Assembly (NCBI GenBank): GCA_947495685.1
Contig: CANLZY010000031.1
Location: 1 to 58,578, forward strand
DNA length: 58,578 nt
Origin: an uncultured Tropicimonas sp.
Lineage (GTDB): Bacteria > Pseudomonadota > Alphaproteobacteria > Rhodobacterales > Rhodobacteraceae
Direction of reading: 5' to 3'
Shown piece after piece: positions 15,844-44,091 of this stretch. Both the position numbers and the translations under genes were made by a program. The notes under the pieces were generated by a model that saw only the letters and a program-made list of their open reading frames with translations, was not told the DNA's origin and did no database searches. Position 1 is the stretch's first letter, and each line of letters starts with the position of its first letter.

Positions 15844-16800
15844 TCAGGATCCGGTGGCGCGATGGGTTTCGTGTTTGAGCTCGGTGCCGGAAATCATCCG
15901 GGCGATGCCCTCTTCGATCGTCATGCAGGATCGGAAACCGATCAGCGCTTCGGCCTGGGATGGATCTCCGGTCGAATGCCGGATGTCGCCAAGGCGCGAT
16001 GGCCCGAAGGCGATCGGTATCTGCGATCCGACAAGTCGATTCACCAGGCGCGCCAGGTCGAGGATCGAGATGTTCTGCCCCGAACAGATGTTCACGACCG
16101 AGAATGTTCCCGGCGCAGCAGCCATCGCTGTGGTCATCGCCGACATCAACGCCACTGAGACTTCGTCCACATGGATGAAGTCGCGGGTCTGTCCGCCATC
16201 ACCGTTTACCGTGAGTGGCGCCCCTTGGCGGGCACCCTGAACGAATCGTGTCAGCACACCGGAATATGGCGAGGTCGCGGACTGGCCCTCCCCAAAGATG
16301 TTGAAGGGGCGAACGGCGATGCCGCGGGCCCCCCACAAGGACGTGGCTTCCTGAAGGTGCCGTTCGCTGCCCAACTTGTCGATGGCGTAGGACGAGATCG
16401 GGGCTGGCACCGAGGCTTCGCCAACAGGCAGGTCCGATTGTTCGCCGTAGACCGCCGCCGACGAGGTAAAGACAACCGGCAGGTCGCCAGTGGCCTCCAG
16501 CAGCGTGACCGTTCCCTGAAGGTTGGTCCGGCTGGCCTCCGCGCGATGATTGGTGCACATCTCGACCGATGAAATCGCGGCGAGGTGGAACACGCCGGAC
16601 ACCTCTCTCAGGGCACGATCGATGGCGCGCCTGTCGCAAATATCGCCCGTGATCAGTTCCACCCCGTCAGGAAGACGCGACGCGTCGCCCGAAGACAGGT
16701 TGTCCAGCACCACCACGTCGGCGCCGCTTTCCACCAACAGGCGGCACAGTGACGACCCGACGAAACCGCAGCCGCCGGTAACCAGAAGGCGTTTGGTCAT
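15844..16800 (-). CDS. NAD-dependent nucleotide-sugar epimerase/dehydratase
   Basis: A 318-residue extended short-chain dehydrogenase. The NAD-binding motif TGGCGFVGSS is at 8-17, the catalytic serine region FTSSAAVYG at 111-119 and the YxxxK pair at Y138/K142. It looks like a UDP-glucose/UDP-N-acetylglucosamine 4-epimerase-like enzyme or a related sugar dehydratase; the exact sugar cannot be read. It lies 10 bp downstream of the capsule exporter ATPase gene and ends a three-gene leftward operon (kpsE-like, kpsT-like, epimerase), which ties it to polysaccharide precursor synthesis. Confidence 0.88.
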   Translation of the reverse strand: MTKRLLVTGGCGFVGSSLCRLLVESGADVVVLDNLSSGDASRLPDGVELITGDICDRRAIDRALREVSGVFHLAAISSVEMCTNHRAEASRTNLQGTVTLLEATGDLPVVFTSSAAVYGEQSDLPVGEASVPAPISSYAIDKLGSERHLQEATSLWGARGIAVRPFNIFGEGQSATSPYSGVLTRFVQGARQGAPLTVNGDGGQTRDFIHVDEVSVALMSAMTTAMAAAPGTFSVVNICSGQNISILDLARLVNRLVGSQIPIAFGPSRLGDIRHSTGDPSQAEALIGFRSCMTIEEGIARMISGTELKHETHRATGS

Positions 16801-16810
16801 GTCCAGTTCC

Positions 16811-17491
16811 TCACACGTCGTCCTCTTCGTCTTCAGAGCTGTTCATGTTGTACTCGTGGTGCGCGATCGCATCCGCTATCTTGTCGTAGTACACCAGCTT
16901 GCCATTCTCCAGAACCGCTCCGGATGTGCAAATTTGGCGCAGGAGCTTGAGACCGTGGCTGACAACGATAGCACTGCTGTTGTTCATCCGGTCGAGAAAA
17001 TACAAACGGCTCTTTTCGCGAAAGGCCGCGTCCCCGACCGAGGTGCTTTCATCCACCAGGTAGGTGTCGAAATGCACGCCCATGGACAGCCCAAAGGCCA
17101 GGCGGGATCGCATGCCCGAGGAATATGTCCGGACCGGCATGTGAAAATGGTCACCCAGTTCAGCGAACTGAGCGACGAATTCCAGCAATTCGTCTGTATC
17201 GATGCCGTAGACCCGCGCGATGAAGCGGACGTTCTGAGCGCCCGTCAGCTCGCCGTGAAAGCTGCCGGCAAACCCGACCGGCCAGGAGATCGTGCCATCC
17301 GAGCTCACCACACCGTGATCGGGTTCCATGGTGCCGGCGATGATCTTCATCAGGCTCGATTTGCCCGCGCCGTTGCGTCCCACAAGGCCGACGCTCTCGC
17401 CGGTGGGGAAAACCACGTTCAGATCGTCGAGCACCACCTTGCGGTGCCCGGCGGCGTTGAACGTCTTTGTGATATTGGTCAATCGTATCAC
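16811..17491 (-). CDS. kpsT: Capsular polysaccharide ABC exporter ATP-binding protein (KpsT/Wzt type)
   Basis: A 226-residue ATPase. The Walker A motif GRNGAGKS is at 38-45, the signature YSSGMRSR at 123-130 and the Walker B FDTYLVDE at 141-148, the last with the D-E-x-T-S-V-G-D pattern typical of KpsT/Wzt. It lacks the long C-terminal carbohydrate-binding domain of O-antigen Wzt proteins, so it is the short KpsT form, which is not coupled to terminal-modification recognition. It pairs with the permease at 19191-19994 and with the periplasm-spanning protein encoded just upstream (12-bp gap). Confidence 0.93.
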
Positions 17492-17502
17492 GGTGACAGG
17501 CC

Positions 17503-19125
17503 CTAACGACGGTCCCGGACGCTGTAATAAATCAGGGCCCCGATTGCCCAGACGGCAAAGGCGAACAAGCTGAACACGCCGAGGATGATATCTCGTTGCG
17601 GATATTCAGAGCTTTGCGCCAGTGTCGGCTCGGCATAGGCGGCCAGGTATCTGGTTTTGCGCTGCGCTTCGGCCAAGGCCGCGTCGAAATTGGCGAGCGC
17701 CGACAGGTAGGATGTCTCTGCGAATTGACGGTCCACGGTGAGGATCTCGTATTCTCCGACGAGCGAAGCATAGGCGCGACCACTGGCACCGGTTTCACCA
17801 ATTCCGAACTTCTTGCGTTCCTCGGCAATTCGATTCTCGATCACGTCGATCCGTTGTTCGGCCTGTCTCAGGCGCGGATCGCCCTCACGGGTGTTGTCCA
17901 TCAGCAAGTCGAGTTCGATCAACGCCTCGGCCAATTGCGCCTGCAGGTTGGTCAACAGCCCCATCTGGCCCTGGATATCGATGTTCGGGTCGACGATCTG
18001 GGTGCGCGCGCGGAAGTCGGTCAGCGCGTTGCGAGCCGTTCGAAGACGTTCCTTTGCCACTTCCAGCTCGTTGCGGGCTGCTGCCGTGACATCGTCGCGG
18101 GCGACCGTGGTCAACCCGTTGATCATCGAGGAGCTTTCCTCGAAGATCGCTCGCGAAATTGCCTGTGCGTCGTCAGGGGTGAAGGCCAGAGATCGCGTCT
18201 CGATCAGTCCGGTGCCCCCGTCGTAGTAGATGGTGATCATACGCTTCCAGTAGCTGACAAGCTTTTCGATCGGCGCATCGGGCTCGATGGTAAAGACCGG
18301 ATCGTTGTCGGGCTTTGAGAACATCGTGCGCAGGTCAAGCTTCTGGTCGATGCTTTCCACCAGGCCCTGGCTCTGAATGAATTCGTACAGAACGTCGGTG
18401 TCCGAGGTATTTCCCGACCCGAAATCGACGATCCCGCTGATGGCCTCGGCGGCACTGGCGGTCTCTTCCTTGCGGACGGAGAACCCCATGACCGATGCGT
18501 ATTGATCGGCCGCCCGTTCGTACAGATACCAGCCTGCGACCGCCACCGGCGCAACGACAAACAGGAAGAAGCTGACAACGATCCCGATGTGACGACCCTT
18601 GCGTCGAGCCGCCGAGGCGGTTGGCAGTACCTCGATGGGCGGAGCGCCGGGCCTGGGGGGCGAGACGTTCAGCTTGTTCTTCTTGCCCCCGCCCTTGTTT
18701 CGGTTGCCCCTGTTATTTTTGTTGCCCCGATTTCCACTATTATCGTTGTTCTGACGGTTTCTGGCCGGAAGCTTGGTGCCACGTGTCGTCATGGCGCCGG
18801 CATCGCCGTCAGGCCCAGTCTTGGTCGGCAGATTGGAGCGCAGATGCGGGCGCCGTCGACCGTCAGCATTGCGTCGGTCCTTGCCCTCCGAGGGTGATCC
18901 GTCATCTGGTTCGTTCGTTATTCCTGCGCCTTTCGCATCCGGCGCGGATGGATCGGCGACGAGTCGCTCCGTCGGACCTTCAGGCGAGCCGGAATCGGCC
19001 ACAGGCGCCGATGTGGGCACTTCCTGCAGTTCCGGTGATGTATCAGATTGGCGGTGTTCGGCCTTGATGGGCCGGACGACAGTTGTTTTCTTCACGGTTC
19101 GTTCCTGCAAACCCAACAAAGTCAT
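17503..19125 (-). CDS. kpsE: KpsE-type capsule export inner-membrane protein with long disordered N-terminus
   Basis: A 540-residue polysaccharide co-polymerase-like protein. The last ~360 residues are the usual KpsE/BexC body: a transmembrane helix at about 180-200, a long periplasmic part rich in coiled coil (around EERKKFG and preceding heptads), and a C-terminal helix [20 protein letters not shown]. It should link the ABC exporter to the outer-membrane Wza-type channel. The first ~175 residues are unusual: low complexity, Pro/Ser/Asp-rich and then Asn/Gly/Arg/Lys-rich (about 122-152), predicted disordered and cytoplasmic. ATG 19125 is preferred over GTG 19140 because AGGAAG lies 6 nt upstream. 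It is divergent from the permease, with only 65 bp between. Confidence 0.88.
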
Positions 19126-19190
19126 GGAAGACTTCCTCACCTTCCTACATATTCCCGCCGAAGTAATCCAGCCTCACGGGTTCATAGCCT

Positions 19191-19994
19191 ATGACCGAAA
19201 TCATCGAACCTGCATCTCGACCGCGGTCTCACAAGAGCGCCAGAACGATTCTTGCCCTGATCCTGCGCGAAATGCAGACGACCTACGGGCGCAGCCCTGG
19301 TGGTTACCTTTGGGCAATTCTAGAGCCGGTCGGGGCCATCGCGGTGTTTACCACCGTCATCGCGATCGGCCTGAAGGTGCGCAACCCAGGACTGGGCTCA
19401 AACTTTGCTCTGTTTTACGCGACGGGCTTCATGCCATTCACCCTTACAATGGCGATGTCGAACAAGATCGCGAACTCGCTGAAGTTCTCTCGACCGCTGC
19501 TGTTCTATCCCGGCGTGCAGTTCACAGATGCCATCATCGCGCGCTTCCTGCTTACCTTCCTGACCAGTACGCTGGTCTTTTTCATCATCATGGCAGGCAC
19601 CCATATCGTATTTGACCTGTCCACCATTCGGGATGTCCCCGCGATTGTCATGGCCTGGTTGATGGCCGGATTGTTCGGTCTGGGCCTTGGAACGATGAAT
19701 TGTTTCCTGTTCTCAGTCGCGCCGCTCTGGGAATCGGCTTACTCAATGCTGACCCGACCACTGTTGCTGCTGTCCTGTGTCCTGTACATTTTCGAGGACG
19801 TGCCGTCACAATACCAGGATGTTGTCTGGCTGAACCCATTGGTGCACATCACAGGCCTGATGCGGGTCGGGTTCTATGCCACTTACGACGGCACCTACGT
19901 TTCGGTCATCTATGTCATGGCGCTGTCGGTGTCGCTCCTCTTCTTTGGGCTGTTGTTCTTGCAACGTTTCCACAGCCAGATCCTGAACCGATAA
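19191..19994 (+). CDS. kpsM: Capsular polysaccharide ABC exporter permease (KpsM/Wzm type)
   Basis: A 267-residue ABC-2 family inner-membrane protein with about six transmembrane helices. The N-terminal amphipathic segment ILALILREMQTTYGRSPGGY and the following LWAILEPVGAIAVFTTV are characteristic of KpsM/Wzm. It forms the translocation path with the ATPase at 16811-17491, although the two are on opposite strands and share a 65-bp divergent promoter region through the kpsE-like gene. It heads the rightward glycosyltransferase block. Confidence 0.92.
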   Translation: MTEIIEPASRPRSHKSARTILALILREMQTTYGRSPGGYLWAILEPVGAIAVFTTVIAIGLKVRNPGLGSNFALFYATGFMPFTLTMAMSNKIANSLKFSRPLLFYPGVQFTDAIIARFLLTFLTSTLVFFIIMAGTHIVFDLSTIRDVPAIVMAWLMAGLFGLGLGTMNCFLFSVAPLWESAYSMLTRPLLLLSCVLYIFEDVPSQYQDVVWLNPLVHITGLMRVGFYATYDGTYVSVIYVMALSVSLLFFGLLFLQRFHSQILNR

Positions 19995-20057
19995 CCACAG
20001 GTGATCCGAATGGCGTTGGACGGTGTTCCTGCGCCAAGAAACGACCGGAAGGCAACG

Positions 20058-21578
20058 ATGAAGGTTCTGTTCTACAACTGGGTCGACTATTCTGACGAAC
20101 TGAACCGAGGCGGCGGTGTCACCCATTATCTGCGCAACGTCCTGCACCAGATGGACGCGCGCGACGACGTGGCCTGCACGTTCCTCTCCAGCGGTATTTC
20201 CTATGACCTGCGTTCCCGGCCACCGCGCTGGAGCCGGGTGGTTCATGGCGCCGCCAAAGGGCGCGAGCGCCGGTTCGAGATCGTCAATTCGGGCTGCCTG
20301 TCGCCGTCGCACCATTCCTTCGGGCATCCCGCTCAGGTGTCGGACCCGGACACCGAGGCCGTCTTTGCGGACTTTCTGCAATCGGTGGGGCCGTTCGATG
20401 TCGTTCACTTCAACAACCTCGAGGGATTGCCGGCCACGGTGCTCGACCTGAAGGCGCAGATGCCCGGTACACGCTTCATTCTGTCCCTGCACAACTACTA
20501 TCCCTTTTGCCCTCAAGTGAACTTCTGGCACCGGGAAGAGGCGCATTGCGATGACTTCGCGAACGGCGAACGCTGTGTGGGATGCCTGCCGTACAAGCCG
20601 AACCCCCGCATGGTCCGGCTGGCAAATTCGGCCAATTTCAGCCTGCAGAAGCGGGGCGTCGGACCGGGCACCGTTGTCTATGACCGCGGCGCGGGGCCGG
20701 CCATGCGCATGGGGGTGCGAACCCTGCGAAAGATCGCCAGCGCCCGTCGCAGCGCGGCTGTGCAACCCACCCCACCCCCTGTATCTGCGCCGGTGATCGC
20801 CGAGCCGATTGACCCGTCCGACGCTGGAGGTTTTCGCGACCGCAGGGATCAGTTCGTTGAGCTGATCAACCGGAACTGTGACACAGTGCTGTGCGTCTCG
20901 GACCGGGTGGCCGAGATTGCCCGGCGTCACGGTGTGTCGGACGCGAAGCTGAGGACAAGTTATATCGGCAGCGACCATGCCGTGCATTTCGACCAGACCC
21001 GGCCGAAATCAGCGATCCTGCGCCCGGATGGGACGGCGCAGATGGCCTTTCTGGGCTACATGCGTCGCGACAAAGGATTCTTTTTCCTGCTGGAGGCGCT
21101 GGAAACGCTCGATCCCACGCTGGCCTCCCGGCTGCATCTGGTTTTTGCCGCAGCAGGACGAGACCCGCTGGCGCTGGCCGCGTTTGATCGGCTGCGCCCG
21201 CGGTTTGCCTCGCTGACCTGGCACGACGGGTATCGGCGCCACGAGATGGACCGCATGTTGTCCGAGGTGGATTTCGGTATCGTGCCCGTCCTGTGGGAGG
21301 ACAACCTGCCCCAGGTCGCCATCGAGATGCACAGCCGCCACATCCCTCTGTTGACCAGCCATCGTGGGGGTGCCAGCGAATTGGGCCGTTGTCCGGGCAT
21401 GGTCTTTCGGGCCGGTGATATTGACGACCTGCATCGCCGCCTGGCCCAGATCCTGAACGGCGATGTCGACCTGGAGGGCTATTGGGCCGGAGCCATGCCG
21501 CCCGTGTCGATGGACCAGCATCTGGCGGATCTGCTGGACGTGTTCGGCGGCCAACCGCCCGATCCAGAGGCCGAGTGA
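20058..21578 (+). CDS. GT4-like glycosyltransferase, first of a tandem pair
   Basis: A 506-residue GT-B fold glycosyltransferase. The N-terminal domain has a GGGVTHYLRN acceptor loop and DVVHFNNLEG, and the C-terminal domain shows MAFLGYMRRDKGFFFLLEAL and DNLPQVAIEMHSRHIPLL, where GT4 enzymes bind the nucleotide sugar. Four cysteines (C151, C164, C173, C176, the last two as CxxC) in the segment after NYYPFCPQ could bind a structural metal. It is clearly paralogous to the next gene. ATG 20058 has GGAAGG upstream; an in-frame ATG 57 bp earlier has no such site. The sugar donor is unknown. It probably acts at the cytoplasmic face on a capsule or O-chain intermediate. Confidence 0.85.
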   Translation: MKVLFYNWVDYSDELNRGGGVTHYLRNVLHQMDARDDVACTFLSSGISYDLRSRPPRWSRVVHGAAKGRERRFEIVNSGCLSPSHHSFGHPAQVSDPDTEAVFADFLQSVGPFDVVHFNNLEGLPATVLDLKAQMPGTRFILSLHNYYPFCPQVNFWHREEAHCDDFANGERCVGCLPYKPNPRMVRLANSANFSLQKRGVGPGTVVYDRGAGPAMRMGVRTLRKIASARRSAAVQPTPPPVSAPVIAEPIDPSDAGGFRDRRDQFVELINRNCDTVLCVSDRVAEIARRHGVSDAKLRTSYIGSDHAVHFDQTRPKSAILRPDGTAQMAFLGYMRRDKGFFFLLEALETLDPTLASRLHLVFAAAGRDPLALAAFDRLRPRFASLTWHDGYRRHEMDRMLSEVDFGIVPVLWEDNLPQVAIEMHSRHIPLLTSHRGGASELGRCPGMVFRAGDIDDLHRRLAQILNGDVDLEGYWAGAMPPVSMDQHLADLLDVFGGQPPDPEAE

Positions 21579-21715
21579 CCAAAAATGCTGCCATTGAGAC
21601 ATTCTGACCCGGCCTGTTGCATTGTGCGAGTGGACCTGTCGGCTAGAGGTAGGTAGATGCGGTTTCCATATGCGATTGCCGGGTGGGCAAACAAAATAGC
21701 GACGGGCGTTGGTCA

Positions 21716-23527
21716 ATGAAGATTCTTTACTACAACTGGGTGGATTACCTGGATCCGGAAACACGGGGCGGTGGGGTCACTGTTTACCAGAAAAACCTGA
21801 TTACCGAACTGAGCGAGAAGGAAGATCTCGACATCTACTTCCTTGCCTCCGGCATTTCCTTCGACCCTTTCAAAAGCAAGCCTCGTTGGGAGCGGGTCAA
21901 GCATGGCCCGCGGGAGAACCGCAGCCGCCGGTTCGAACTGATCAACTCGGGGGTCCTGTCGCCCGGGCACCATTCGTTCTGGCACGGATCGCAGGTCGAC
22001 CACGCCCCTACCACGGAAGCCTTCTTCGATTTCATCGAGAAGATGGGACCGTTCGATATCGTGCATTTCAACAACCTCGAAGGTATTCCTGCCTCTGCCC
22101 TGGCGTTGAAAGAACGGTTTCCGGACACACGTGTCGTCTACAGCTTCCACAACTATTATCCGGTCTGCCCGCAGGTGAACCTGTGGCGGCAGGAAAAGGA
22201 AAACTGCCTCGACTATGGTGATGGCAGCAAATGTGCGAACTGCCTGATGTGGCTGCCCGATGCCGACGAGGTGCGCAACGCCAACGCGGTGGCCTACAGT
22301 CTCAAGAAGGTCGGAGTGTCGCCTGACTCGGTCATCTTTCGCCGCGGGTTCGGCCTGAGTGCGCGTGCGGCAGGCAAGTGGGTGCGCACGTCGCGCCGTT
22401 GGTCCAAGGAAAGCAAGAACGTCCTCAAATATGCGCAGGACGCCTACGACGCGCTGGACGATGACAGCCCCTATCGCCGGATCGTCTCCAACCGGAAACG
22501 CTTTTCCCGTCGGCGCGAGATGATCACCGATATCCTGAACGAGAACTGCGACAGGATCCTGTGCGTGTCGGATCGGGTGGCTGAGGTTGCCGCGAAATTC
22601 GGCGTCGATCCAGACTTGCTCCAGACCAGCTATATCGGCACGAAACACGCAAAGCTTTTCGAAGAGACCGAGCCCAAACCGTCGATCCTGAGGGAAGATG
22701 GCACCGTGACGCTGGCCTACATGGGATACATGCGGCGCGACAAGGGTTACTATTTCCTGATGGAGGCGCTGAAATCGCTGCCGAAATCGCTGGCCAGCAA
22801 GGTTCGGCTCCTGATCTGCGCCAAGACCGGTGACGGCGAGGCGATGTATCTGCTGGAGCAACTGGGCGGGCACCTCAAGGAGGTGTTCCATGCCGATGGT
22901 TACACTCACAAGCAGATCGATGCCCTGCTGGCCGACGTTGATGTCGGTGTGGTGCCGGTTCAGTGGGAAGACAACCTGCCCCAGGTCGCCATCGAAATGC
23001 ACGCTCGCCATATCCCGTTGCTGACCAGCGATCTGGGCGGTGCGCGCGAGCTTGGCAACACCCCGGAAATGGTGTTCGAGGCCAGTCGGGAGAGCAGTTT
23101 CGTCGCCCGGCTTCGGGACATCCTGGACGGAAAGATCGATCTGGACGCCTATTGGGCGAATGCAATGGCCCCGGTGTCGATGGCCGAGCACGAAGAAGAA
23201 CTGCTGGAAATCTACAAGGAGCTGCTTGATCCGAACGCAGTGCCAGGGAGTGCCAGCGCTCGTATTCAGACGACTCGGGATCGGGCGAAGGCCGCCCGCG
23301 TGAAGGCAGAGGCCGCGCAGAAAGGTCGCCGTGTCGCCGAGGAGCGGCGCGAAAAGATGTTGGCTCAGAAGTCGGGATCGCTTCGCAAGCCGCTTCCCAC
23401 GAGCCAGACGGCGACGCCCGAAGCGCTGCGCAAGGTCACCAGTCGCGGCAGAAAGCTGCCGCGTCACGTATTGAATAAACTCAATACCGGACCTCGGGCT
23501 CTGGCCGGCAGGCCGAAGTCCTCGTAA
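21716..23527 (+). CDS. GT4-like glycosyltransferase, second of a tandem pair, with charged C-terminal tail
   Basis: A 603-residue paralogue of the preceding protein. It shares the start (MKILYYNWVDY), the GGGVTVYQKN loop, DIVHFNNLEGIPA, the NYYPVCPQ segment with the same cysteine pattern (…C…C…CxxC) and the C-terminal DNLPQVAIEMHARHIPLL block. It differs by a C-terminal extension of about 100 residues that is rich in Ala, Arg, Lys and Glu (for example RDRAKAARVKAEAAQKGRR), probably a basic coiled or disordered tail that could contact membrane lipids or partner enzymes. The pair probably arose by gene duplication and may add similar sugars in succession. Donor and acceptor are unknown. Confidence 0.85.
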   Translation: MKILYYNWVDYLDPETRGGGVTVYQKNLITELSEKEDLDIYFLASGISFDPFKSKPRWERVKHGPRENRSRRFELINSGVLSPGHHSFWHGSQVDHAPTTEAFFDFIEKMGPFDIVHFNNLEGIPASALALKERFPDTRVVYSFHNYYPVCPQVNLWRQEKENCLDYGDGSKCANCLMWLPDADEVRNANAVAYSLKKVGVSPDSVIFRRGFGLSARAAGKWVRTSRRWSKESKNVLKYAQDAYDALDDDSPYRRIVSNRKRFSRRREMITDILNENCDRILCVSDRVAEVAAKFGVDPDLLQTSYIGTKHAKLFEETEPKPSILREDGTVTLAYMGYMRRDKGYYFLMEALKSLPKSLASKVRLLICAKTGDGEAMYLLEQLGGHLKEVFHADGYTHKQIDALLADVDVGVVPVQWEDNLPQVAIEMHARHIPLLTSDLGGARELGNTPEMVFEASRESSFVARLRDILDGKIDLDAYWANAMAPVSMAEHEEELLEIYKELLDPNAVPGSASARIQTTRDRAKAARVKAEAAQKGRRVAEERREKMLAQKSGSLRKPLPTSQTATPEALRKVTSRGRKLPRHVLNKLNTGPRALAGRPKSS

Positions 23528-24799
<1,272 letters not shown>

Positions 24800-24836
24800 T
24801 CGCGGCGTATCGGGCAGGGTCACGCAAGGAGAGCCG

Positions 24837-26615
<1,779 letters not shown>

Positions 26616-26687: not shown

Positions 26688-29600
26688 ATGCTGCTTGGAT
26701 TTCGTGAAACCGGGGGCGCTCGTTGGGACTGCAGGCTCGACTTCGACCGTTTCGATTATGCGAACCTGTCATTCTTCGACGCGACGGGTACCGACATCCT
26801 GTTTCACCTGTCGTTCCGACCGACCGACCAGATGGTGGCGTTCAACCGTCGGTTCGCAGATGTCTGGGAGACAGAACAGAACCTGCCTTGTACGCTTGCG
26901 CCCGAAGGCAACGCGGTACAGATCGACTTTGCCGATGACACGATCCGCGTCTTGCTGAACGATTCAGAGATCCTCACACATACCCGCGGCGCAGACGATG
27001 CGGCGATCGAGCAATTCGATATTCACGGGGGGGCCTTCGATGTGCGCATCGACGGCCCTGCGAACCAGGACCGGCCCGGCGCAGGAGAGCTGTCGCTGAT
27101 CTCGCCGTTCCTGCTGGCAGGGTGGGGCTTCGAGCTTGGAGCACAGGCTCAGGACCTTGTCATCACGATCGACGGGTTGGCCACGACAATCCCGGTGGCA
27201 CGCTTGCCGCGTCCCGACCTTGCCGCGGCTGCGGGTCTGAACGATGCCAATCTCGGTGTGACCGCGGTGCTGCCGGGGCGGATTTGGCGCGGACAGGACT
27301 CCGACAGCGCGCTGCGCCTGCAACTGGTCAGCAACGGCCGCCCCTGTGGGGCACCGCTAACCATCGACCGCGCGGCTCTCATCGAGATGATCGAGACGGT
27401 GGCGTCCACCGAAGACGCCCGCGACGCCTTTGCGATGGTATCGGCTGTCGAGCACGTGGCCTGTGCCGGGCTGATCCCGGAGCTGAGCCACGCCGCCCGG
27501 AGACGGTTGTCACTGGCCATCGACATCTACAAGCTCAACGACCTTCTGAACCCGGAGGACCTGGTGCTGGACGGTGATGCCGAGACAGGTATCGCGACGT
27601 CGGTTGACCCGGATATCGCCGCGGTCGAGGCCGTCCAGAAGGCCTTTGCCCGAAGCATGCGTGGCGGCGACCGCCTGTCACCCGCCGAGGCTCTGGAGGG
27701 GGTGGCCCCCGAGATTGCCGATTTGACGTCCAATCAGAAACGCCTGCTGGTGATGCGGCTCGTCGAGGTCTGTGCCGAGGCGGATCAGGTTGCAGCATTG
27801 CAACCGCTGGCCAAGACCTGTGGCCTGCTGGACAGCCCCGCCAGCGATGCTCCATGGGAGCGGTCGTTCCGGCTTCCGTTCGAGATGCTGGTCGAAGATT
27901 CCGACGCCGTTCTGGAGTTCTTTCAATGGCTGGCACAGCGCCCGGAAGGCTGGGTGTCGACCCCGGCGATCTGCTGGAGCCTGGACCGCATTGTGCGTGA
28001 CTGCCCGTTGTTCCTGTCGGATTCCGCCCGCGAGAGCATCGCGCGCGCGTTCTTGGACTATGTCGATTGGCACGCCTGGAACTATTGGGGGCGGACCAGT
28101 TGTACCTTCATGACGCGCTCGGTCGTCGGTTTGCTGGAACACGTGCACCTGTTTTCACAATGGTTCGGCGACTGGGCCGTCGACCGTGCATTGCGCAGTC
28201 ACTGGCTCGCCCCATCGTTTTGGGCTGGCATCGACGCGGGCGCACCGGATGCGCCCTATCGTTCTGACCCGCGGCTGGTATCTGCACGCGCGGCTTTTGA
28301 CGCGGTCGTCGCCGTTGTCGAGAGCGGAGCCGACACCCATGCGCTGGAGGCGCTACCGCCCCCAACGGCCATCGAGGGGGATCGCGTGATGCGCGAGATG
28401 CTCGCCGTCGGCTGGTCCGGCGACCGGCTGGCCACGCTGGAGATGCACCGGCGCAACGACCTTGCGGTGCGCCGACATGCTCTGCCGGGTGGCACAGCCG
28501 ATGGCGCAATCGAAGCGCCCCAGGTTGCGCGGGCGATCCGCGCGCTGTCGCCGATGCTGCCGCGCAGCGAATACCTGGAACTGCAAACCATGGCGAGCCA
28601 GGCGGCCACCGATCTTCTGGCGGCGCTTGGCACGGCAGAAGAAACCGACCTGTTGCCGGACTTGCGGGCGCTTCATCCGCAGTTGCGTGTACTCGGCGGG
28701 CGGCGCGCGGGTTTTGTCGGCGTTGCCACGGCGCTCAACCTTGCCAATGGGCTGCTTCGGGCCGGGGTTGCGGACCTCGCCCAAGCGGCGGTCGAGATGA
28801 TCCAGGACCTGGTGGCCGCCGTCCCGGATATCGACCGTGCGGAGTTGCCGATTGCCCCTGCCGTGCGAATGGCCGTGTTCGGGCTGCGGCAGACGGCGCA
28901 GACCGACCCGACCGGGCGGGCGTGGACGCTTGTTCGGCTGTTGTCGGAGGCCGAAGCTGCCATTCCGCCCGCTGCTGACCCTGCCGCTGAAACCCTGCTG
29001 GCGCGCGATGCGCGGGCGATGTTCTTTGACACGGTGGTGGTGATCTTTTCCTGCAAGCCGCTCCTTGAAACACGGGTGAAACAACAACGCGAGACGTGGC
29101 TCAAGGACCTTCAGGCGCTTGGCGTGCCTTACCTGATCGTCGTCGGGGACGGTGACAACACGGTGCGCGGTGACATTCTGCACATCGATGCCCCTGACAG
29201 CTACGAGGGCCTGCCCGCCAAGGTGCTCGCCACGATCCGTTGGGTGTATCGCAATACGCCCTTCAGCCACATTTTGAAGATCGACGACGATTGCTTCCTG
29301 GACGTCGACCGGTTTTTCCACAGCCAGAGCTATCGCAAGTTTGCCTACTATGGGCGTCGCCTGCACCGGACCGAGGGCCAGACTGACCGGACCTGGCACT
29401 TGACGCGGGCCAACACCGATCTGGCGGAACTCGACATCGACAAGTCGCCGGAACCATCGACCTATGCCGAGGGTGGTTCTGGCTACGTGCTGAACCGGGC
29501 CATAATGGACCTGCTGATCCGCAATGCCGAAACGCCCGAGGGCGCGCGTCTGGTCCTGACCTCGATCATGGAGGACAAGCTGATCGGGGACCTGCTTGGC

Positions 29601-30749
29601 CTCAGCGGCGTTCTGCCCGACAGCGAGGACTATGACGCCTGCGTGCTGCGCCGGTCTCATTCCAAGGGCACACCGGTCAGCCGGTGGGAAAATGCCTTCC
29701 TGCCCAGCCGGGTCAGCCCGGCCAAGATGGTGCACCTGGACACGCCCGACCTGCAGACCTGGGCCGCGCAGGTGCATGACAGCGCCGAGTTGTGGCCCAA
29801 GAAGGTCTGGCCGACCTATGCGCCCGCACGGATGGGCTGGAACACCAACGCCGTGGATCTGGTCAGTTCGCCCGAGCATCTGGTGCGCATCAACGCCGAG
29901 CCGTTGGTGGTGATCTGCTGCATCCGCAACGAATTGACGATGCTTCCGATGTTCCTCGAGCACTACCGGACGCTCGGCGTGAAGGGTTTCTTCTGTGTCG
30001 ACAATTGCTCGGACGACGGAACACTCGAATTCCTGATGGAACAACCCGACGTTGTGACGTTCTCGGCCGACACCGATTACTGGGCGTCTGTCTATGGCGT
30101 GGCATGGCAGCAGGCGCTGATGGCCAACTTCCGGTTGAACCGCTGGTCGCTGATCGCGGATGCGGATGAATTCCTCGCGCTGCGGGACGATGAGCACAAC
30201 CTGCCCGATCTTCTGGAAACGCCCGAATTCCGTGACGCCGACGCGGCGCGCGTCTTCATGCTGGACCTCTATCCCAAGGGGCACCTGTCGCAGGCTGACC
30301 TCAGTGCGGCGGACCCGTTCAGTGTGGCCGATCACGTCGACCGCGAGCCGTTCCTGGCCGAATCCACCGCGACCGGGCCGTTCTGCAACGCCGAGACCTG
30401 GACCAGCAGCCTGCGCCACCGGTTGCTGCCCGGCTCGCGATCCGAATTGTTCGTGGCACAGAAGTACGCCCTGTTGAGGTATCGCCCGTGGATGCACCTG
30501 TCGGCGGGGCTGCACTATTTGTCGGAGGGCCGGGTGGCGACGCGCGATATGATTTTTGCGCATTTCAAGTACCACGCCGCGTTCCATGCCAAGGTCGCCG
30601 AGGAAACCCGCCGCCGCCAGCACTTCAACGATGCCGAGGAATACCGCCGCTATCTGGCGTTGATTTCCGAAGGGCGCGACGTGATGTTCGAAGAGGATGT
30701 GTCGGTGCCATGGCGCAACTGCGACTGGGTGCGGGAGCGGTTGGGCTAG
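26688..30749 (+). CDS. Multidomain glycosyltransferase: galectin-like domain, helical region, GT31-like and GT92/GT2-like domains
   Basis: A 1353-residue protein. Residues about 20-122 resemble a galectin carbohydrate-recognition domain: H40-x-S42-x-R44, then N53, W60, E63 and N65, matching galectin-1 H44-N46-R48 / N61-W68-E71-R73 in spacing (4; 7; 3; 2), with Asn-to-Ser and Arg-to-Asn changes. Residues about 128-230 (FLLAGWGFELG) look like the beta-rich domain seen in other bacterial glycosyltransferases. A helical region of about 500 residues follows. About 780-1040 is like GT31 beta-1,3-galactosyltransferases: DSYEGLPAKVLATIRWVYRN and the metal motif DDD at 866-868. From 1072 a GT2_4/GT92-like domain has CCIRNELTMLPMFLEHY, DNCSDDGT and DADEF (1158-1162). 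AGGAG precedes the ATG. The domain calls are by eye. Confidence 0.82.
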   Translation: MLLGFRETGGARWDCRLDFDRFDYANLSFFDATGTDILFHLSFRPTDQMVAFNRRFADVWETEQNLPCTLAPEGNAVQIDFADDTIRVLLNDSEILTHTRGADDAAIEQFDIHGGAFDVRIDGPANQDRPGAGELSLISPFLLAGWGFELGAQAQDLVITIDGLATTIPVARLPRPDLAAAAGLNDANLGVTAVLPGRIWRGQDSDSALRLQLVSNGRPCGAPLTIDRAALIEMIETVASTEDARDAFAMVSAVEHVACAGLIPELSHAARRRLSLAIDIYKLNDLLNPEDLVLDGDAETGIATSVDPDIAAVEAVQKAFARSMRGGDRLSPAEALEGVAPEIADLTSNQKRLLVMRLVEVCAEADQVAALQPLAKTCGLLDSPASDAPWERSFRLPFEMLVEDSDAVLEFFQWLAQRPEGWVSTPAICWSLDRIVRDCPLFLSDSARESIARAFLDYVDWHAWNYWGRTSCTFMTRSVVGLLEHVHLFSQWFGDWAVDRALRSHWLAPSFWAGIDAGAPDAPYRSDPRLVSARAAFDAVVAVVESGADTHALEALPPPTAIEGDRVMREMLAVGWSGDRLATLEMHRRNDLAVRRHALPGGTADGAIEAPQVARAIRALSPMLPRSEYLELQTMASQAATDLLAALGTAEETDLLPDLRALHPQLRVLGGRRAGFVGVATALNLANGLLRAGVADLAQAAVEMIQDLVAAVPDIDRAELPIAPAVRMAVFGLRQTAQTDPTGRAWTLVRLLSEAEAAIPPAADPAAETLLARDARAMFFDTVVVIFSCKPLLETRVKQQRETWLKDLQALGVPYLIVVGDGDNTVRGDILHIDAPDSYEGLPAKVLATIRWVYRNTPFSHILKIDDDCFLDVDRFFHSQSYRKFAYYGRRLHRTEGQTDRTWHLTRANTDLAELDIDKSPEPSTYAEGGSGYVLNRAIMDLLIRNAETPEGARLVLTSIMEDKLIGDLLGLSGVLPDSEDYDACVLRRSHSKGTPVSRWENAFLPSRVSPAKMVHLDTPDLQTWAAQVHDSAELWPKKVWPTYAPARMGWNTNAVDLVSSPEHLVRINAEPLVVICCIRNELTMLPMFLEHYRTLGVKGFFCVDNCSDDGTLEFLMEQPDVVTFSADTDYWASVYGVAWQQALMANFRLNRWSLIADADEFLALRDDEHNLPDLLETPEFRDADAARVFMLDLYPKGHLSQADLSAADPFSVADHVDREPFLAESTATGPFCNAETWTSSLRHRLLPGSRSELFVAQKYALLRYRPWMHLSAGLHYLSEGRVATRDMIFAHFKYHAAFHAKVAEETRRRQHFNDAEEYRRYLALISEGRDVMFEEDVSVPWRNCDWVRERLG

Positions 30750-31491: not shown

Positions 31492-31658
31492 CTTTGGCAG
31501 GATAGTCTCCTTGCTGATCGCCTCGAGGCCGGGAGTAGCAGGTTTTTGGGCACCGGGGGAAACAACACTGGAAAGATGGCATGATCCATGCTTTTCCTGA
31601 ACAAAATTCGTATGCTCTGAGCCAGTGGGCACAAGCACATTTCAAGAAGGACATCGAC

Positions 31659-34163
31659 ATGATTGAAATCATCGCTGCCGCGCGGTTGCTCGATTTTGAC
31701 ACCGACACAAAGCTGGAAGAAGCCAGTGGCCTGGAGGACTTCGTTCTCGACCATCAGGCACGTCTTGATTTCCTTTTCGATGACGCTTCCGTGCTGGGTG
31801 GGTTGTTGACGGGCGCACCCGCGGTCCTGTCGAGCAGCCTGATCGCCTGGCAGAAGACCGTTTCAAGCCCGATGGGCGACGCCAAGGTCCGCGTCGAACT
31901 GGGTGGCAGCGGTATTGACCCGGTCTCCAGCCTGGGTGACCTGCTGGTCGCGGTGGACAAGGGGGTCGCGAACGGAACGCTGGACAGCCTGAAGATCAAG
32001 ATGACCGATGGCGGCAAGACCCGCACTGTCATGGATGTCGATATCGCTCCGACCGGGCTGGTCGTGACCTCGGGCAATCAATCGATCGAGTTGGCGGGAG
32101 TCATTCCGACGGGGATCGCGGACGCCGTTGGCGCGGTTGCTGCACTGACGGGCCTTCAGGATTTCGAGGCGCTGAGCAACAAGGAATTCAACCAGCTTGT
32201 CGCCCAGTTGCAAGGGATTGGTCTGTCCGGACTGACCGTCAAGGATGGTGATGACACGGTTCTGTCGTTGTCCCTGTCCGGAAGCAAGATCACCCTGGCC
32301 GCAGGGGAGTTGACTCTGGTTGCGAACGGCACCTTCCCGGCTGGAAGCCTGGGGCAGGTCGTCGATCTGGCCCGTGACCTTCTGCTGGACGCCGAAGACG
32401 GCACGCTGAAGCTGTCGGATTATCCGGATCTGGATCTGACGTCGCTGACCCTGTCGGACGCCAAGGGAAAGCTTCTGGAAGTCGAGGGCGAGATCGGCAA
32501 CATCCTCGACGAAACGCTGACCAAGGTTACGGTCAAGGGGACGGGCGGCAATGACAACATCCTGATCTATGACGACATCTCCGGGGAAACAGTGCTTGTC
32601 CAGGCCGGCAATGGCGATGACAGGGTTCTGATCGGCGGACCGGAATATGGCGAGTACTTCGGCTCCGGCGAGGTATATCCCGCCCCCCGTCTGCTGGGCG
32701 AAAGCAACCTGTTCCAAGGTGGCAAGGGGCACGACACCCTGATCATCGATGATTCCGATTTTACTTTTGCTTCTCAGGTCATCGACCTGAACCTCGTCAA
32801 AGGGCGCGTTTTCGGCGCTCAATACGATGGCGATACCTTCAAGGTTGGCGACAAGAGCTATCAGGTCAAGTTCCAGCAGTTCGAGCAGTACGGCATTCTG
32901 GCGACCGGAGATATCCGGGTCACCGGCAGCGACGGCCCCGATCGGCTGGACCTCTACAATGCAGACGGCTACGTCGACATCGACGGCGGCAAGGGATTTG
33001 ACCGTCTTGGGTTGGACAAGCTGTTTGATGGCGATGGCTTCAACGGAATGACCAAGACCGAGTTCCGCTCGACAGTGACGCTGTCGCAGGATGGTCGGGG
33101 GGGCGTGAGTCTGTTCGACAATGAAAGCAAAGACTACGTGGGCATGTTCAACCGCATTGAGCAGATCCGTTTCATCGCCAACCGGAACACCGGCGCGACA
33201 GAGGACGTCGACATGGATCTGCTGGTCGATTTCGACCTTCGCGGAACGACGGGCGACGATTCGATCAACGGTTCGAGGTTCGACGACATGATCCTTGGCC
33301 GGACCGGAAACGATGTCATCAACGGTTTTGGTGGTTCTGACCTGTTGAACGGCGGCGTCGGCGCGGACACGATCAAGGGGGGGCTCGGGGCCGACTTTAT
33401 CTATGGCAACGATGGCCCGGACAAGCTTGACGGCGAGGATGGCAACGACGTGATCATCGGCGGCCTTGGCGACGATACCGTCAAGGGCGGCCGCGGAAAC
33501 GACACCCTGGAAGGGGGCATTGGCAAGGACTCCGTCCTGGGTGGCGCCGGCAAGGATTCCCTCAAGGGGGGCGACGGCAACGACACCATGTCAGGCGGCA
33601 CTGGCAACGACGAGATGGGCGGCGGCACCGGCAGCGACACGATGGACGGTGATAACGGCAACGACTTCATGGAAGGTCACGCCGGCAAGGACGTGATGTC
33701 AGGCGGCAAGGGCAACGACGTCATGGACGGTGGAACGGATAACGACACCCTCAAAGGCAACGCGGGCAACGACATCATTTCCGGGGGCATCGGCAACGAT
33801 GTTCTGGAAGGCGGCTCTGGCGACGACAAGTTGTACGGCGATGGCGGCAATGACACCCTGCGTGGTGATGCCGGGAACGACGTGCTTGATGGGCATTTCG
33901 GTGCAGATACCTACGTGTTCGGTGCAAACTTTGGCAACGACACGATCCTGACGTTCAAGGCCGCCAAGTCGTCAGCGGCCCATGATGTGATCGAGTTCGA
34001 GAGCTCTCTGGGCGAGGTTTCGGATCTGGCAGGCTTCAAGGCGGCGTCCACCCAGGATGGCACCTCGATCGTCTATGACTACCTTGATGACGGCGTGAAT
34101 GTTCTCGTCATCGAGAACACCAACCTGAACAAACTCACGGCAGACGATTTCGACTTCGGTTGA
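31659..34163 (+). CDS. RTX-family calcium-binding protein with large non-repetitive N-terminal region
   Basis: An 834-residue acidic protein, probably secreted by a type I system without a cleaved signal peptide. Residues 529-744 hold 24 nonapeptide repeats of the GGxGxDxUx type that fold into a calcium-bound beta roll. The last ~90 residues (ADTYVFGANFG, then DVIEFESS) resemble the C-terminal RTX secretion region. The first ~500 residues have no motif I can name; they contain further glycine/aspartate clusters such as GTGGNDNILIYDD. ATG 31659 has AAGGA upstream; an in-frame ATG at 31581 lacks one. No type I exporter is in the window. Location among polysaccharide genes suggests a matrix or surface-layer role. 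Confidence 0.85.
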   Translation: MIEIIAAARLLDFDTDTKLEEASGLEDFVLDHQARLDFLFDDASVLGGLLTGAPAVLSSSLIAWQKTVSSPMGDAKVRVELGGSGIDPVSSLGDLLVAVDKGVANGTLDSLKIKMTDGGKTRTVMDVDIAPTGLVVTSGNQSIELAGVIPTGIADAVGAVAALTGLQDFEALSNKEFNQLVAQLQGIGLSGLTVKDGDDTVLSLSLSGSKITLAAGELTLVANGTFPAGSLGQVVDLARDLLLDAEDGTLKLSDYPDLDLTSLTLSDAKGKLLEVEGEIGNILDETLTKVTVKGTGGNDNILIYDDISGETVLVQAGNGDDRVLIGGPEYGEYFGSGEVYPAPRLLGESNLFQGGKGHDTLIIDDSDFTFASQVIDLNLVKGRVFGAQYDGDTFKVGDKSYQVKFQQFEQYGILATGDIRVTGSDGPDRLDLYNADGYVDIDGGKGFDRLGLDKLFDGDGFNGMTKTEFRSTVTLSQDGRGGVSLFDNESKDYVGMFNRIEQIRFIANRNTGATEDVDMDLLVDFDLRGTTGDDSINGSRFDDMILGRTGNDVINGFGGSDLLNGGVGADTIKGGLGADFIYGNDGPDKLDGEDGNDVIIGGLGDDTVKGGRGNDTLEGGIGKDSVLGGAGKDSLKGGDGNDTMSGGTGNDEMGGGTGSDTMDGDNGNDFMEGHAGKDVMSGGKGNDVMDGGTDNDTLKGNAGNDIISGGIGNDVLEGGSGDDKLYGDGGNDTLRGDAGNDVLDGHFGADTYVFGANFGNDTILTFKAAKSSAAHDVIEFESSLGEVSDLAGFKAASTQDGTSIVYDYLDDGVNVLVIENTNLNKLTADDFDFG
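33243..33890 (+). repeat. Tandem 27-bp repeats encoding 24 RTX nonapeptides
   Basis: A continuous run of 24 diverged 27-bp units coding for glycine- and aspartate-rich nonapeptides such as GGDGNDTMS and GGTGSDTMD. The units are in frame with the RTX gene and are protein-coding repeats, not a CRISPR array. Confidence 0.92.
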
Positions 34164-36853: not shown

Positions 36854-38653
36854 TCAGACGAGGATCAGGTCCGATGGGTCCAGCTGGCTTTCGAGGAGCC
36901 CGCGAATCTCGACGAGGTCACCGGTATCTGACAGCGAGATCTCGAGCCCGAGCGCGGTTGGCGTGACCTTGGCCGCGACCTCCCGAAATGTGGAAAGCCC
37001 CCAGTCGGACAGGTCGAGTCTATCCTTGCCGTCTTCCCAGTCGAGGATGATATCTTTCGCGCCGCCGCGTTCGAAGACAAAGACGTCGCTCCCATTTCCA
37101 CCGTCGAGCGTGTCCGTGCCGGAATCGCCGTTCAACCGGTCCACACCGTTGCCGCCGCGCAGGATGTCATTCCCGATGCCGCCGTTCAGAATGTCATTCT
37201 GGTCGCCGCCCTTGAGGACGTCCTTTCCGGCCCCACCGGTCAACGTGTCGGTGCCGTCCCCGCCGTCGAGCTTGTCATTCCCGTTGCCGCCAAGCAGGGC
37301 GTCGTTGCCAGCTGCGCCATAGATCTTGTCGTCGCCAGCCTCGCCCTTGATCGTGTCGTTGCCGTTGTTGCCATAGAGCTTGTCGGCCTGGGTGCCGCCA
37401 AAGATCCTGTCGTCGCCGCCTTCGCCCTTCACGATATCCGTGCCGGCATTTCCGTACAGGACATCGTTGTCGGTGCCGCCAAGAAGCGTGTCATTGCCGC
37501 GTTCGCCCTTCAGGGTGTCCGCCCCAGCGAAGCCCTTGAGCGTATCCGTGTCGTTGCCGCCGAACAGCTTGTCGTTGCCCTTGCTGCCGATCAGGGTGTC
37601 ATTTCCATCACCACCCTTGAGGATGTCGTTGCCGTCCAGCCCGTCGATGATGTCGTTGCCCGCCCCACCGGAGATAACGTTGGCTCCGATGTTTCCGGTC
37701 AGCCTGTCGTTGCCGCCACCCGAAACGAGATTCTCGATAACGGTTCCCTCGGCGATCGCCATGTTCCCGATATGGTTGCCGACATTCGAAAAGACTCCCG
37801 ATTGCAGGGTGATCTTCTGGTCGTGCGCGGTCCTGGAGAAGTTGAGGGTGTCGATGCCACCGTCGTCGATGATGGTGAAGGCCATCGTCTGCCACACCTC
37901 TTCGAGATGGTCGTAGAAGTCGCCCGCCGTCGAGCCGACGCCATAGGTCGTGTTCCCGGTTCGCAGTGTTCCGACGGTGCCATAGAGCATCTGTGCGGCC
38001 AGGATATCGGCTGGCATGAGGGTCAGGACGTTTGCCTGGGATGCCTTGACCAAGGGGTTCTCGTCCTGATCGAAATACGACATCACGGTCGCTTGCCAAC
38101 TGTCGTTGGCGTACTCTGCATCCGTGGCGAAATCCTTGCCCTTGCCGGGCGTGCTGCCGTAGTCGGTCGGATGCTCGAACCCCAGGGCATGCCCCAGTTC
38201 GTGCACGAAGGTGCGGAAGACATAGCTGTCAAAGGCCGGACCGTCCTCAGGCAGCCAGGATTGGGCCACGTTCACATCTGCCTTGGAGATCGTATAGTCG
38301 GTGCCGCGCACCGTTGCGCTTGTGGAGGTGTTGGCTCCGCTGCGCTCGTCGTCAAATGAGATCTTGACGCTCTGCCCTGAGGGCGGATTGGCGGCGGAAA
38401 ACTGGATACCTGTGGTCGCGGTCCAGGCTTCGAGCGCGTATTTTGCATACCACTGCCCGTCCTTGGTCAGGTCGGAGTAATCGACATAAACGATCTGATC
38501 GGGGTTCCGGTCGAGGTCAATTGGCAACGACCAGGAATACCCTTTGTGAACTGCCCAATCAGGATAGGCCAAGGTATTGGCGATCTCGGTAACGGTCAGG
38601 GTCGGTAGGTCTGATGTGCTCGAGGCTGCGGCCTCAGTTGTGGAAAGTGCCAT
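36854..38653 (-). CDS. Serralysin-like (M10) zinc metalloprotease with RTX repeats
   Basis: A 599-residue secreted metalloprotease. The zinc motif HELGHALGFEHP places ligands at H151, H155 and H161, and VMSYFDQ supplies the Met-turn. Residues about 310-525 contain some 23 RTX nonapeptides that bind calcium; a C-terminal region (DVFVFERGGAKDIILDWEDG) resembles type I secretion signals. There is no Sec signal peptide, as expected for type I secretion. An inactive propeptide is not obvious. The type I exporter genes are not in the window. Location between a sugar transferase and wza-type gene suggests it acts on the extracellular matrix or surface proteins. Confidence 0.92.
   Translation of the reverse strand: MALSTTEAAASSTSDLPTLTVTEIANTLAYPDWAVHKGYSWSLPIDLDRNPDQIVYVDYSDLTKDGQWYAKYALEAWTATTGIQFSAANPPSGQSVKISFDDERSGANTSTSATVRGTDYTISKADVNVAQSWLPEDGPAFDSYVFRTFVHELGHALGFEHPTDYGSTPGKGKDFATDAEYANDSWQATVMSYFDQDENPLVKASQANVLTLMPADILAAQMLYGTVGTLRTGNTTYGVGSTAGDFYDHLEEVWQTMAFTIIDDGGIDTLNFSRTAHDQKITLQSGVFSNVGNHIGNMAIAEGTVIENLVSGGGNDRLTGNIGANVISGGAGNDIIDGLDGNDILKGGDGNDTLIGSKGNDKLFGGNDTDTLKGFAGADTLKGERGNDTLLGGTDNDVLYGNAGTDIVKGEGGDDRIFGGTQADKLYGNNGNDTIKGEAGDDKIYGAAGNDALLGGNGNDKLDGGDGTDTLTGGAGKDVLKGGDQNDILNGGIGNDILRGGNGVDRLNGDSGTDTLDGGNGSDVFVFERGGAKDIILDWEDGKDRLDLSDWGLSTFREVAAKVTPTALGLEISLSDTGDLVEIRGLLESQLDPSDLILV
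37073..37720 (-). repeat. Tandem 27-bp repeats encoding RTX nonapeptides of the metalloprotease
   Basis: About 23 diverged in-frame 27-bp units encode nonapeptides such as GGDGNDTLI and GGAGKDVLK on the minus strand. The base sequence differs from that of the RTX repeats at 33243-33890, although the protein pattern is the same. Confidence 0.9.
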
Positions 38654-43359: not shown

Positions 43360-44091
43360 TCAGTGGCGCAACACCTGCAGAACCACGGGGCCGATCTGTT
43401 CGCTGACCCATTGGCGCGATTGCGGGATCTGGCCCGACCCTGACACCCAGTAGGTATTGGACACCGAAAGATCCGGCGCAACGCAGGTTTCCCGCATGCG
43501 GGTTGTTGAAATCCGGGCGCCAGACAGGAGAGTCACGGTTTCAGCGCCGTCGGGACCGATCGAACAGGTCATTCGAGTCGGAACCTCATGATTCTCGCCG
43601 TCGATATGGCGATAAATCCGCTCGACACTGCCGGAGCGGCGCGCGGTCACGAGATTCATGGCGGCGGTGGCCTCCGATGACATCAGGTCAAACCCCAGCC
43701 CGCGCGTGCCGGTCAACACCCCATTGCGCGTGACAAGGGTTTGGCGGCTCCCGGTGATCCAGGTGCGATAGGGGCCGTTCTGTCCGGCGAAACCCAGGAC
43801 TGCGGTCTGGTCTTCATCGACAACCACAGCGACAAGTACCGGGCCTTCGATTGATTTGAGCGCCAACTGGACCTGTTGGCGCGTCCCAGGCGCGACATTG
43901 GCCCCCGCACCAATCGGAACAGACGCCACGGCAGTGTTTTCGCGCAGCCGAATTTCGTCGTAGGCTGCGTTGAGCGCCCGCAGTCCCTGCGCCTTGGTGG
44001 GGGCGTTTCCACATCCGGACAAGCCGAATACAGCAGTCATGGCGAGCAGAACCAGCCCGGCACCGCGGAGCCGTGAAAGTGTGTTGATCAT
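43360..44091 (-). CDS. YjbF/GfcB-family polysaccharide lipoprotein
   Basis: A 243-residue lipoprotein. The signal peptide ends in the lipobox LSGC (C27). The body resembles the YjbF/GfcB family associated with group 4 capsule or Yjb exopolysaccharide, with strands such as TAVLGFAGQNGPYRTWITGS and a region RQTLVTRNGVLTGTRGLGFD. The start overlaps the end of the YjbH-like gene by four bases (ATGA), so both are translationally coupled. The equivalent of YjbG, which normally lies between them or next to them, is not present. Function is unknown beyond exopolysaccharide export or assembly. Confidence 0.85.
   Translation of the reverse strand: MINTLSRLRGAGLVLLAMTAVFGLSGCGNAPTKAQGLRALNAAYDEIRLRENTAVASVPIGAGANVAPGTRQQVQLALKSIEGPVLVAVVVDEDQTAVLGFAGQNGPYRTWITGSRQTLVTRNGVLTGTRGLGFDLMSSEATAAMNLVTARRSGSVERIYRHIDGENHEVPTRMTCSIGPDGAETVTLLSGARISTTRMRETCVAPDLSVSNTYWVSGSGQIPQSRQWVSEQIGPVVLQVLRH

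Follow-up and report, generated by a model that had tools for sequence, protein, structure and literature searches.

A predicted galectin domain joined to GT31- and GT2-type transferase domains in a protein of a Tropicimonas polysaccharide locus

To our knowledge, galectins are usually treated as eukaryotic lectins. The plant hydroxyproline galactosyltransferases (Hyp-GALTs, or GALTs), in which a galectin domain is joined to a transferase of glycosyltransferase (GT) family 31, have a layout of two domains, with no further transferase and with a type II membrane anchor. A survey of 153 genomes, 52 of them bacterial, reports land plants as the sole group in which PF01762 is combined with PF00337 in a protein (PMC5225481, in the sections considered here); eight plant Hyp-GALTs range from 338 to 741 amino acids (aa), and the function of their galectin domain is stated as not known (PMC8667403, likewise in the sections considered). 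No mention of a bacterial galectin domain was found in the excerpted text of PMC5225481, PMC4202792, PMC8667403, PMC13084444, PMC10767822 and PMC11766507, and no paper describing a bacterial galectin-GT31 protein was found in the open-licence PubMed Central literature, although one may exist elsewhere. Here we describe such a protein, encoded by an uncultured Tropicimonas sp. (Rhodobacteraceae) in a stretch of 58,578 nucleotides (contig CANLZY010000031.1), hereafter the window. An earlier note on this DNA had proposed a galectin-GT31 fusion that could bind and extend a galactose-containing glycan; the fusion itself is confirmed as an observation, and the interpretation given to it is supported by the sequence comparisons and structure models presented below.

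By sequence and predicted structure, the protein unites five parts in one chain: an N-terminal galectin domain is followed by a small beta module and a helical spacer, and then by two transferases, the first of GT31 type and the second of GT2 type. Its features are the following:

26688..30749, forward strand: galectin-GT31-GT2 protein (P0001), an open reading frame (ORF) of 1353 aa with an ATG start and Pfam matches
26688..27056, forward strand: N-terminal galectin domain, residues 1-123 (PF00337 match at residues 33-115, 26784-27032)
26805..26876, forward strand: galectin sugar-site signature H40-x-S42-x-R44, N53, W60, E63 (motif positions and conservation)
27078..27365, forward strand: second beta module, residues 131-226, GW ... 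RPDL ... LPGRIW (alignment and AlphaFold model)
27369..28997, forward strand: middle region, residues 228-770, almost all-helical in the AlphaFold model
29010..29822, forward strand: GT31-like catalytic domain, residues 775-1045 (PF01762, profile and structure matches)
29283..29291, forward strand: DDD 866-868, a D-x-D type motif, invariant in 81/81 aligned rows
29568..29588, forward strand: MEDKLIG 961-967, with M, E, D, K and G invariant in 81/81 rows
29925..30215, forward strand: GT2-like domain PF13704, residues 1080-1176, in a module that extends to residue 1353 (Pfam and AlphaFold model)

Profiles and predicted structure indicate that the N-terminal domain is a galectin-type carbohydrate-recognition domain. 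Gal-bind_lectin (PF00337, Pfam cut-off 22.1 bits) scores 23.5 bits on the complete sequence, and 28.9 bits (E 8.8e-7) when residues 1-134 are searched alone, the cut-off being passed without the classical Asn46 and Arg73. In 14 well-known genomes used as a control, this family gave no match at E<=0.001; at E<=1 there were matches in six of them, none above the cut-off. An N-terminal profile was built from 11 full-length family members, i.e. the window protein and those of ten other genomes (of 13 regions considered, L036, whose open frames are split, L039, for which a wrong frame had been taken, and L043, with neither a galectin nor a GT31 match, were left out of this seed). Against PDB sequences it retrieved 178 distinct matches at E<=0.01 (best E 1.9e-19), and among the 60 listed 58 are named galectin, one LEC-6 and one 'putative fiber protein'. 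The AlphaFold model of residues 1-781, based on an 80-row alignment (predicted local distance difference test, pLDDT, 90.4; predicted template modelling score, pTM, 0.60), presents residues 1-140 as all-beta, with a pLDDT of 87-97 per 10-residue block. When the modelled galectin domain was compared with known structures by Foldseek, the best 50 of 265 rows (E<=0.001) were all galectin-family PDB chains, GRIFIN, LEC-6 and CGL2 being counted as such. Single-domain galectin chains gave target-normalised template modelling (TM) scores of 0.62-0.78 and root-mean-square deviations (rmsd) of 2.6-3.5 A over about 123-138 columns, with the exception of the fungal CGL2 (TM 0.62, rmsd 5.8 A). The N-terminal galectin-like domain read from the letters in the earlier note is thus recovered both by the Pfam score and by the fold of the model.

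The residues of the sugar site are found where that note had placed them. We assume here the usual galectin-1 numbering of the site (H44, Asn46, R48, N61, W68, E71, Arg73), galectin-1 itself not being in the alignments. The motifs FHLSFRP, FNRRF and VWETEQ start at residues 39, 52 and 59 (and DDDCF, in the catalytic half, at 866), so that H40, R44, N53, W60 and E63 occupy the positions of H44, R48, N61, W68 and E71. The position of Asn46 is taken by S42 and that of Arg73 by N65, both as noted earlier. In the 11-row alignment, with a mean column identity of 42%, H40, S42, R44, N53, W60 and E63 are invariant (11/11), as are N26, F29 and G114. In a wider alignment of 70 rows and 119 columns, N53, W60, R44, S42, H40 and E63 are the six best-conserved columns, a ranking for which the hypergeometric value of 4e-7 is only a guide, as nine seed members stand among the profile-gathered rows. 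The H-R-N-W-E core is complete in 66 of these 70 rows and Ser is present at the Asn46 position in 67; the Arg73 position (N65) is variable, ranking 115th of the 119 columns. The same H-x-S-x-R appears in the PDB profile alignment in a sequence that we take to be Toxascaris leonina galectin domain 1.

Both transferase sites are, as far as conserved motifs can tell, intact in all the aligned rows. Galactosyl_T (PF01762, Pfam cut-off 23) matches residues 827-949 with 34.8 bits and Glyco_tranf_2_4 (PF13704, cut-off 27.5) residues 1080-1176 with 73.1 bits. A profile of the GT31 domain searched against the PDB found B3GalT6 (2.6e-7) and B3GalT5 (1.2e-4), the only two matches at E<=0.1. Residues 775-1353 were modelled from an 81-row alignment (pLDDT 90.7, pTM 0.90), and among the best 50 of the 888 Foldseek rows at E<=10 this C-terminal half has CHSY3-CHPF chains at ranks 1-4, B3GalT6 at 5, K4 chondroitin polymerase (K4CP) at 7 and 9, C1GalT1 at 14-15 and Manic Fringe at 21. 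LARGE1 and lysyl hydroxylase LH3, like K4CP, rank between these matches, and GlfT2 and an Aspergillus galactofuranosyltransferase come later in the same list. The scores for the GT31-like fold (B3GalT/C1GalT/Fringe) are TMt 0.62 for 9sp7 (6.3 A), 0.59 for 7q4i (7.8-8.0 A) and 0.58 for 2j0a (5.0 A). D866-868, M961, E962, D963, K964 and G967 are invariant in 81/81 rows; MEDKLIG presumably marks the position of the GT31 E-D-x-x-x-G motif, and we take D-x-D to be a GT31 motif as well. In the GT2 part, D1158, D1160 and E1161 of DADEF 1158-1162 are likewise invariant in 81/81 rows. The GT31-like region claimed around DDD 866-868 is therefore borne out, by a PF01762 score above the cut-off and by a modelled fold that matches B3GalT6, C1GalT1 and Manic Fringe. 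Neither of the two modelling outcomes named in the earlier note as contrary to its reading (no jelly roll in residues 1-130, no GT31-like fold around DDD 866-868) was obtained in these predicted structures. Of the 'GT92/GT2-like' label once given to the C-terminal domain only the GT2 half stands, since no GT92 family was found there in Pfam at E<=1.

Between the galectin and GT31 domains, no Pfam family was found for the beta module (residues 131-226) or for residues 228-770, and a PDB profile search with residues 137-300 alone brought up nothing clear (best E 0.089); W200 of the beta module is invariant in 80/80 rows. NCBIfam has no family for the 1353-aa protein at E<=0.001. No clear membrane segment is apparent in it, because the highest 19-residue hydropathy mean is only 1.52.

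Relatives were recruited by scanning contigs with no other query than two peptides of the GT31 domain, one from around MEDK and one from around YEGLP. The best 80 of 122 relatives were kept which, with the window protein, make 81 proteins, 79 of them with a testable N-terminus (L089 and L115 being without); their hosts are mostly Rhodobacterales. The galectin seed profile matches 68 of the 79 at once and 70 after iteration, leaving nine without a match. In terms of the sugar site, 66 have an intact H-R-N-W-E core, four a broken one and nine another N-terminus. Pfam gives PF00337 above the cut-off in L052, L085 and L106 and no match to it in L059, L080 and L121; PF01762 is above the cut-off in L052, L059, L079, L080, L085, L106 and L121.

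In the nine relatives without a galectin (L059, L080, L083, L092, L097, L099, L102, L112 and L121), a GW/RxDV beta module replaces it. Eight of them are presumably gamma- or betaproteobacterial and one is a Pararhodobacter, the classes being assumed from family names. A galectin hidden in this N-terminus was considered and is not supported (hhalign probability 0.4%); the region is weakly related to the second beta module (hhalign probability 72.5%). A quick tree built on the catalytic half places all nine, along with a single galectin-bearing protein from Azonexus, in one supported group. The distribution of N-termini suggests that this domain was exchanged or lost more than once. Two further relatives were observed in passing. 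In Gemmobacter nectariphilus, a separate galectin-like ORF of 170 aa (L113:1619-2131, reverse strand) scores 29.4 bits against the family profile, has no Pfam match and has the motif His replaced; it overlaps the beginning of an ORF of 540 aa which, judged by eye, resembles a glycosyltransferase. A second, more distant GT31 relative (G302:C3:39931-40731, reverse strand, 275.9 bits, in a 1205-aa frame) lies on the same replicon as a galectin-GT31-GT2 gene.

Galectin domains are rare in these bacteria. In genome samples that each include the window's own genome, PF00337 was found in 10/394 genomes of the family, 3/385 of the class and 2/398 of the phylum, and in one place only of the window's own genome; the galectin-domain profile matches in the same two phylum genomes. 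The GT31-domain profile matches in 11/310 family genomes, two of these weakly. A search with the whole protein gave matches in 55 of 100 relatives, near full length in five of them (own genome included), and almost all the others cover the GT2 part only. Similarly, of 20 plasmid records with any match, 15 cover the GT2 part only and five are long (67-100% of the query); four of the latter are annotated 'glycosyltransferase' and one 'glycosyltransferase family 2 protein' with 'hypothetical protein'. A second architecture, with an N-terminal PF00337 followed by GT2 and GT25, is encoded at L128:7475-11146 (37.1 bits) and L129:4701-8534 (31.2 bits), in two genomes of one genus belonging to an alphaproteobacterial family other than that of the window. 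No GT31 match was found in these two proteins.

The gene lies in a polysaccharide locus, of which the nearest members are:

24756..26615, forward strand: partner GT2 gene (Pfam), fused or adjoining in many relatives
23645..24799, forward strand: glf, UDP-galactopyranose mutase (TIGR00031, 315.1 bits, cut-off 303.75)
21683..23527, forward strand: GT4-type glycosyltransferase (Pfam)
20001..21578, forward strand: GT4-type glycosyltransferase
19191..19994, forward strand: ABC-2 export permease, KpsM-like (PF01061 over cut-off; KpsM below the NCBIfam cut-off)
17503..19140, reverse strand: BexC/CtrB/KpsE-like export protein (below the NCBIfam cut-off)
16811..17491, reverse strand: polysaccharide-export-type ATP-binding cassette (ABC) ATPase, KpsT/TagH-like (below equivalog cut-offs)
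15844..16800, reverse strand: GalE-like sugar-nucleotide epimerase (below the NCBIfam cut-off)

The neighbouring glf named in the earlier note is thus present. Antisense longest-ORF shadows of glf and GT4 genes, in this G+C-rich DNA, were left out as genes. Farther out in the window are genes for an initiating sugar transferase, a UDP-glucose dehydrogenase, a ManC-type enzyme, YjbF/YjbH and Wzz. Group 4 capsule-type genes (YjbF and YjbH, at 43360-46259) and a Wzz-type protein are found in one window with KpsM/T/E-like genes, which suggests two export routes side by side. Genes for an RTX-repeat protein (31581-34163) and a serralysin-like M10 RTX protein (36854-38653) lie close to the polysaccharide genes, and an M10-type gene is also near the plasmid relative (L140). 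Neighbourhoods were counted in 80 loci of relatives, up to 10 kb on each side, some cut by contig ends (tblastn, at least 60 bits), and the counts are raw ones, not set against a background. The GT2 partner shares a stop-free frame with the gene in 23 loci and sits just upstream in 34, while the contig ends there in 4; it was not found by this position rule in 19. A GT4 match is near the gene in 49. The relative on Thalassococcus plasmid pS3B has neighbours annotated as glf, gmd, GDP-L-fucose synthase, sulfotransferase, ABC permease, sugar transporter and ABC ATPase.

We consider that these data are best explained as a whole, with a probability of roughly 60%, by a glycosyltransferase of several domains that works in the cytoplasm and belongs to a surface-polysaccharide locus, and in which the galectin holds a galactose-bearing chain for two catalytic sites before export by an ABC system. 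The galectin domain would bind a unit, a beta-galactoside or something related, in the growing chain or in its primer and keep it near both sites; the GT31 and GT2 sites would add two successive sugars, at least one of them probably galactose; and the upstream GT2 partner, fused in some relatives, would add a further residue. The finished chain would then leave through the adjoining KpsM/T/E-type ABC system. A lectin domain in the cytoplasm would make sense because the chain is presumably built inside the cell and only then exported. Sugar binding by the galectin domain and catalysis by the GT31 and GT2 domains are in both cases deduced from conserved residues and models.

Several alternatives may explain the same protein. 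One is that the galectin is a sensor of the finished or correctly assembled chain, governing how long it grows, when it is terminated or when it passes to the ABC exporter, instead of holding an acceptor. ABC-type export genes do adjoin the gene, and lectin-like domains that read the chain end are known from O-antigen ABC ATPases. Yet, the intact galectin is part of the transferase chain in 66 of the 79 testable proteins and not of a transporter, and Kps-type genes were found in under half of those 80 loci, so that we regard such a sensor as rather unlikely. It is also unlikely, and slightly more so, that the fold is merely a structural or dimerisation module that has lost sugar binding. The Ser at the Asn46 position, the unconserved Arg73 position, the four rows with a broken site and the existence of galectin-less relatives would agree with such a loss; nevertheless, a purely structural role would not be expected to leave the sugar site as the six best-conserved columns, and Toxascaris leonina galectin domain 1, which has the same H-x-S-x-R, binds sugar. 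A third possibility is that the GT31 and GT2 domains build no polymer and instead attach one or two sugars as a decoration, the target perhaps being a secreted protein, for which the adjoining RTX proteins are candidates. The two RTX-repeat genes of the window and the M10-type gene near the plasmid relative would fit this idea, but many nearby genes are for sugar nucleotides, transferases and polysaccharide export, and protein decoration appears improbable. Finally, eukaryotic contamination or misassembly, which the rarity of galectins in the family, class and phylum samples might have brought to mind, is refuted, since dozens of assemblies, and a complete plasmid too, show the same galectin-GT31-GT2 architecture, and a full-length relative of the same genus is 65% identical.

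Other observations weigh against the explanation in which the galectin is an acceptor holder. Nine relatives with the same GT31-GT2 body carry another N-terminus, the sugar site is broken in 4 of the 70 galectin rows, and the label 'galectin intact' needs seven changes on the tree (shuffled mean 14.0, 0/500 as low; the tree is unrooted); because of these three points, the galectin is not essential to every one of these enzymes. Some of the Pfam galectin matches are weak (L079 scores 18.4 bits, under the cut-off), and the conservation ranking of the site columns is not independent, the 70 rows having been collected by the 11-member profile, with nine members among them. The Ser for Asn46 and the unconserved Arg73 position imply that the affinity and the second sugar may differ from those of classical galectins. 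Moreover, glf is present in only 27 of the 80 loci, and KpsT-, KpsM- and KpsE-like genes in only 36, 32 and 32, some of the loci being cut by contig ends.

A broader proposal can tentatively be made, although the odds are somewhat against it: intracellular galectin domains could be built-in acceptor clamps of bacterial multi-transferase polysaccharide synthases. Such clamps would have arisen in at least two kinds of enzyme, galectin-GT31-GT2 and galectin-GT2-GT25, and the galectin-GT31 proteins of plants would apply this principle too, whether independently or through a relationship. Since the bacterial family shares the plant pairing and apparently lacks an anchor, the role of the galectin in such fusions becomes directly testable by expression in laboratory strains. 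The family also brings galectins into the range of bacterial enzymes, with the sugar site conserved, and could be a source of new enzymes that recognise galactose or have two sites.

The comparison with known systems places the protein among several of them. The bacterial domain has the profile, the predicted fold and the H-R-N-W-E pattern in common with animal and fungal galectins (galectin-7, galectin-9, Toxascaris Tl-gal, CGL2) but differs in being part of a large enzyme, with Ser for Asn46 and a free Arg73 position. The alphaproteobacterial L128 and L129 proteins also start with a PF00337 domain over the cut-off followed by transferases, but theirs are GT2 and GT25, without a GT31 match. 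Two transferase domains per chain are likewise present in chondroitin synthase CHSY3/CHPF and in the E. coli K4 chondroitin polymerase, neither of which is known to have a lectin domain. In contrast to them, the bacterial protein has PF13704 as its second domain and another domain arrangement (TM 0.2-0.3); in the model, its two domains are placed differently from those of CHSY3/CHPF, because the TM is about 0.3 and the rmsd 21-25 A. A close parallel is offered by Arabidopsis GALT1-GALT6, whose chain likewise carries PF00337 together with PF01762 (PMC8667403 and PMC5225481, in the sections considered), and galactose-related glycan building is likely in both. The bacterial protein, of 1353 aa, has about 650 residues (the beta module and the helical region) between the galectin and GT31 domains, an extra C-terminal GT2 and no clear membrane segment; it shows HxSxR for the classical HxNxR, and its gene lies in a polysaccharide locus. 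The earlier suggestion of a bacterial counterpart of the plant GALTs thus holds for the pairing of domains and fails for the layout, given the long spacer and the extra GT2. Since the pairing is common to both and the plant layout is not, the bacterial protein is set apart as a variant of the galectin-GT31 combination, not a member of the plant-type GALT family.

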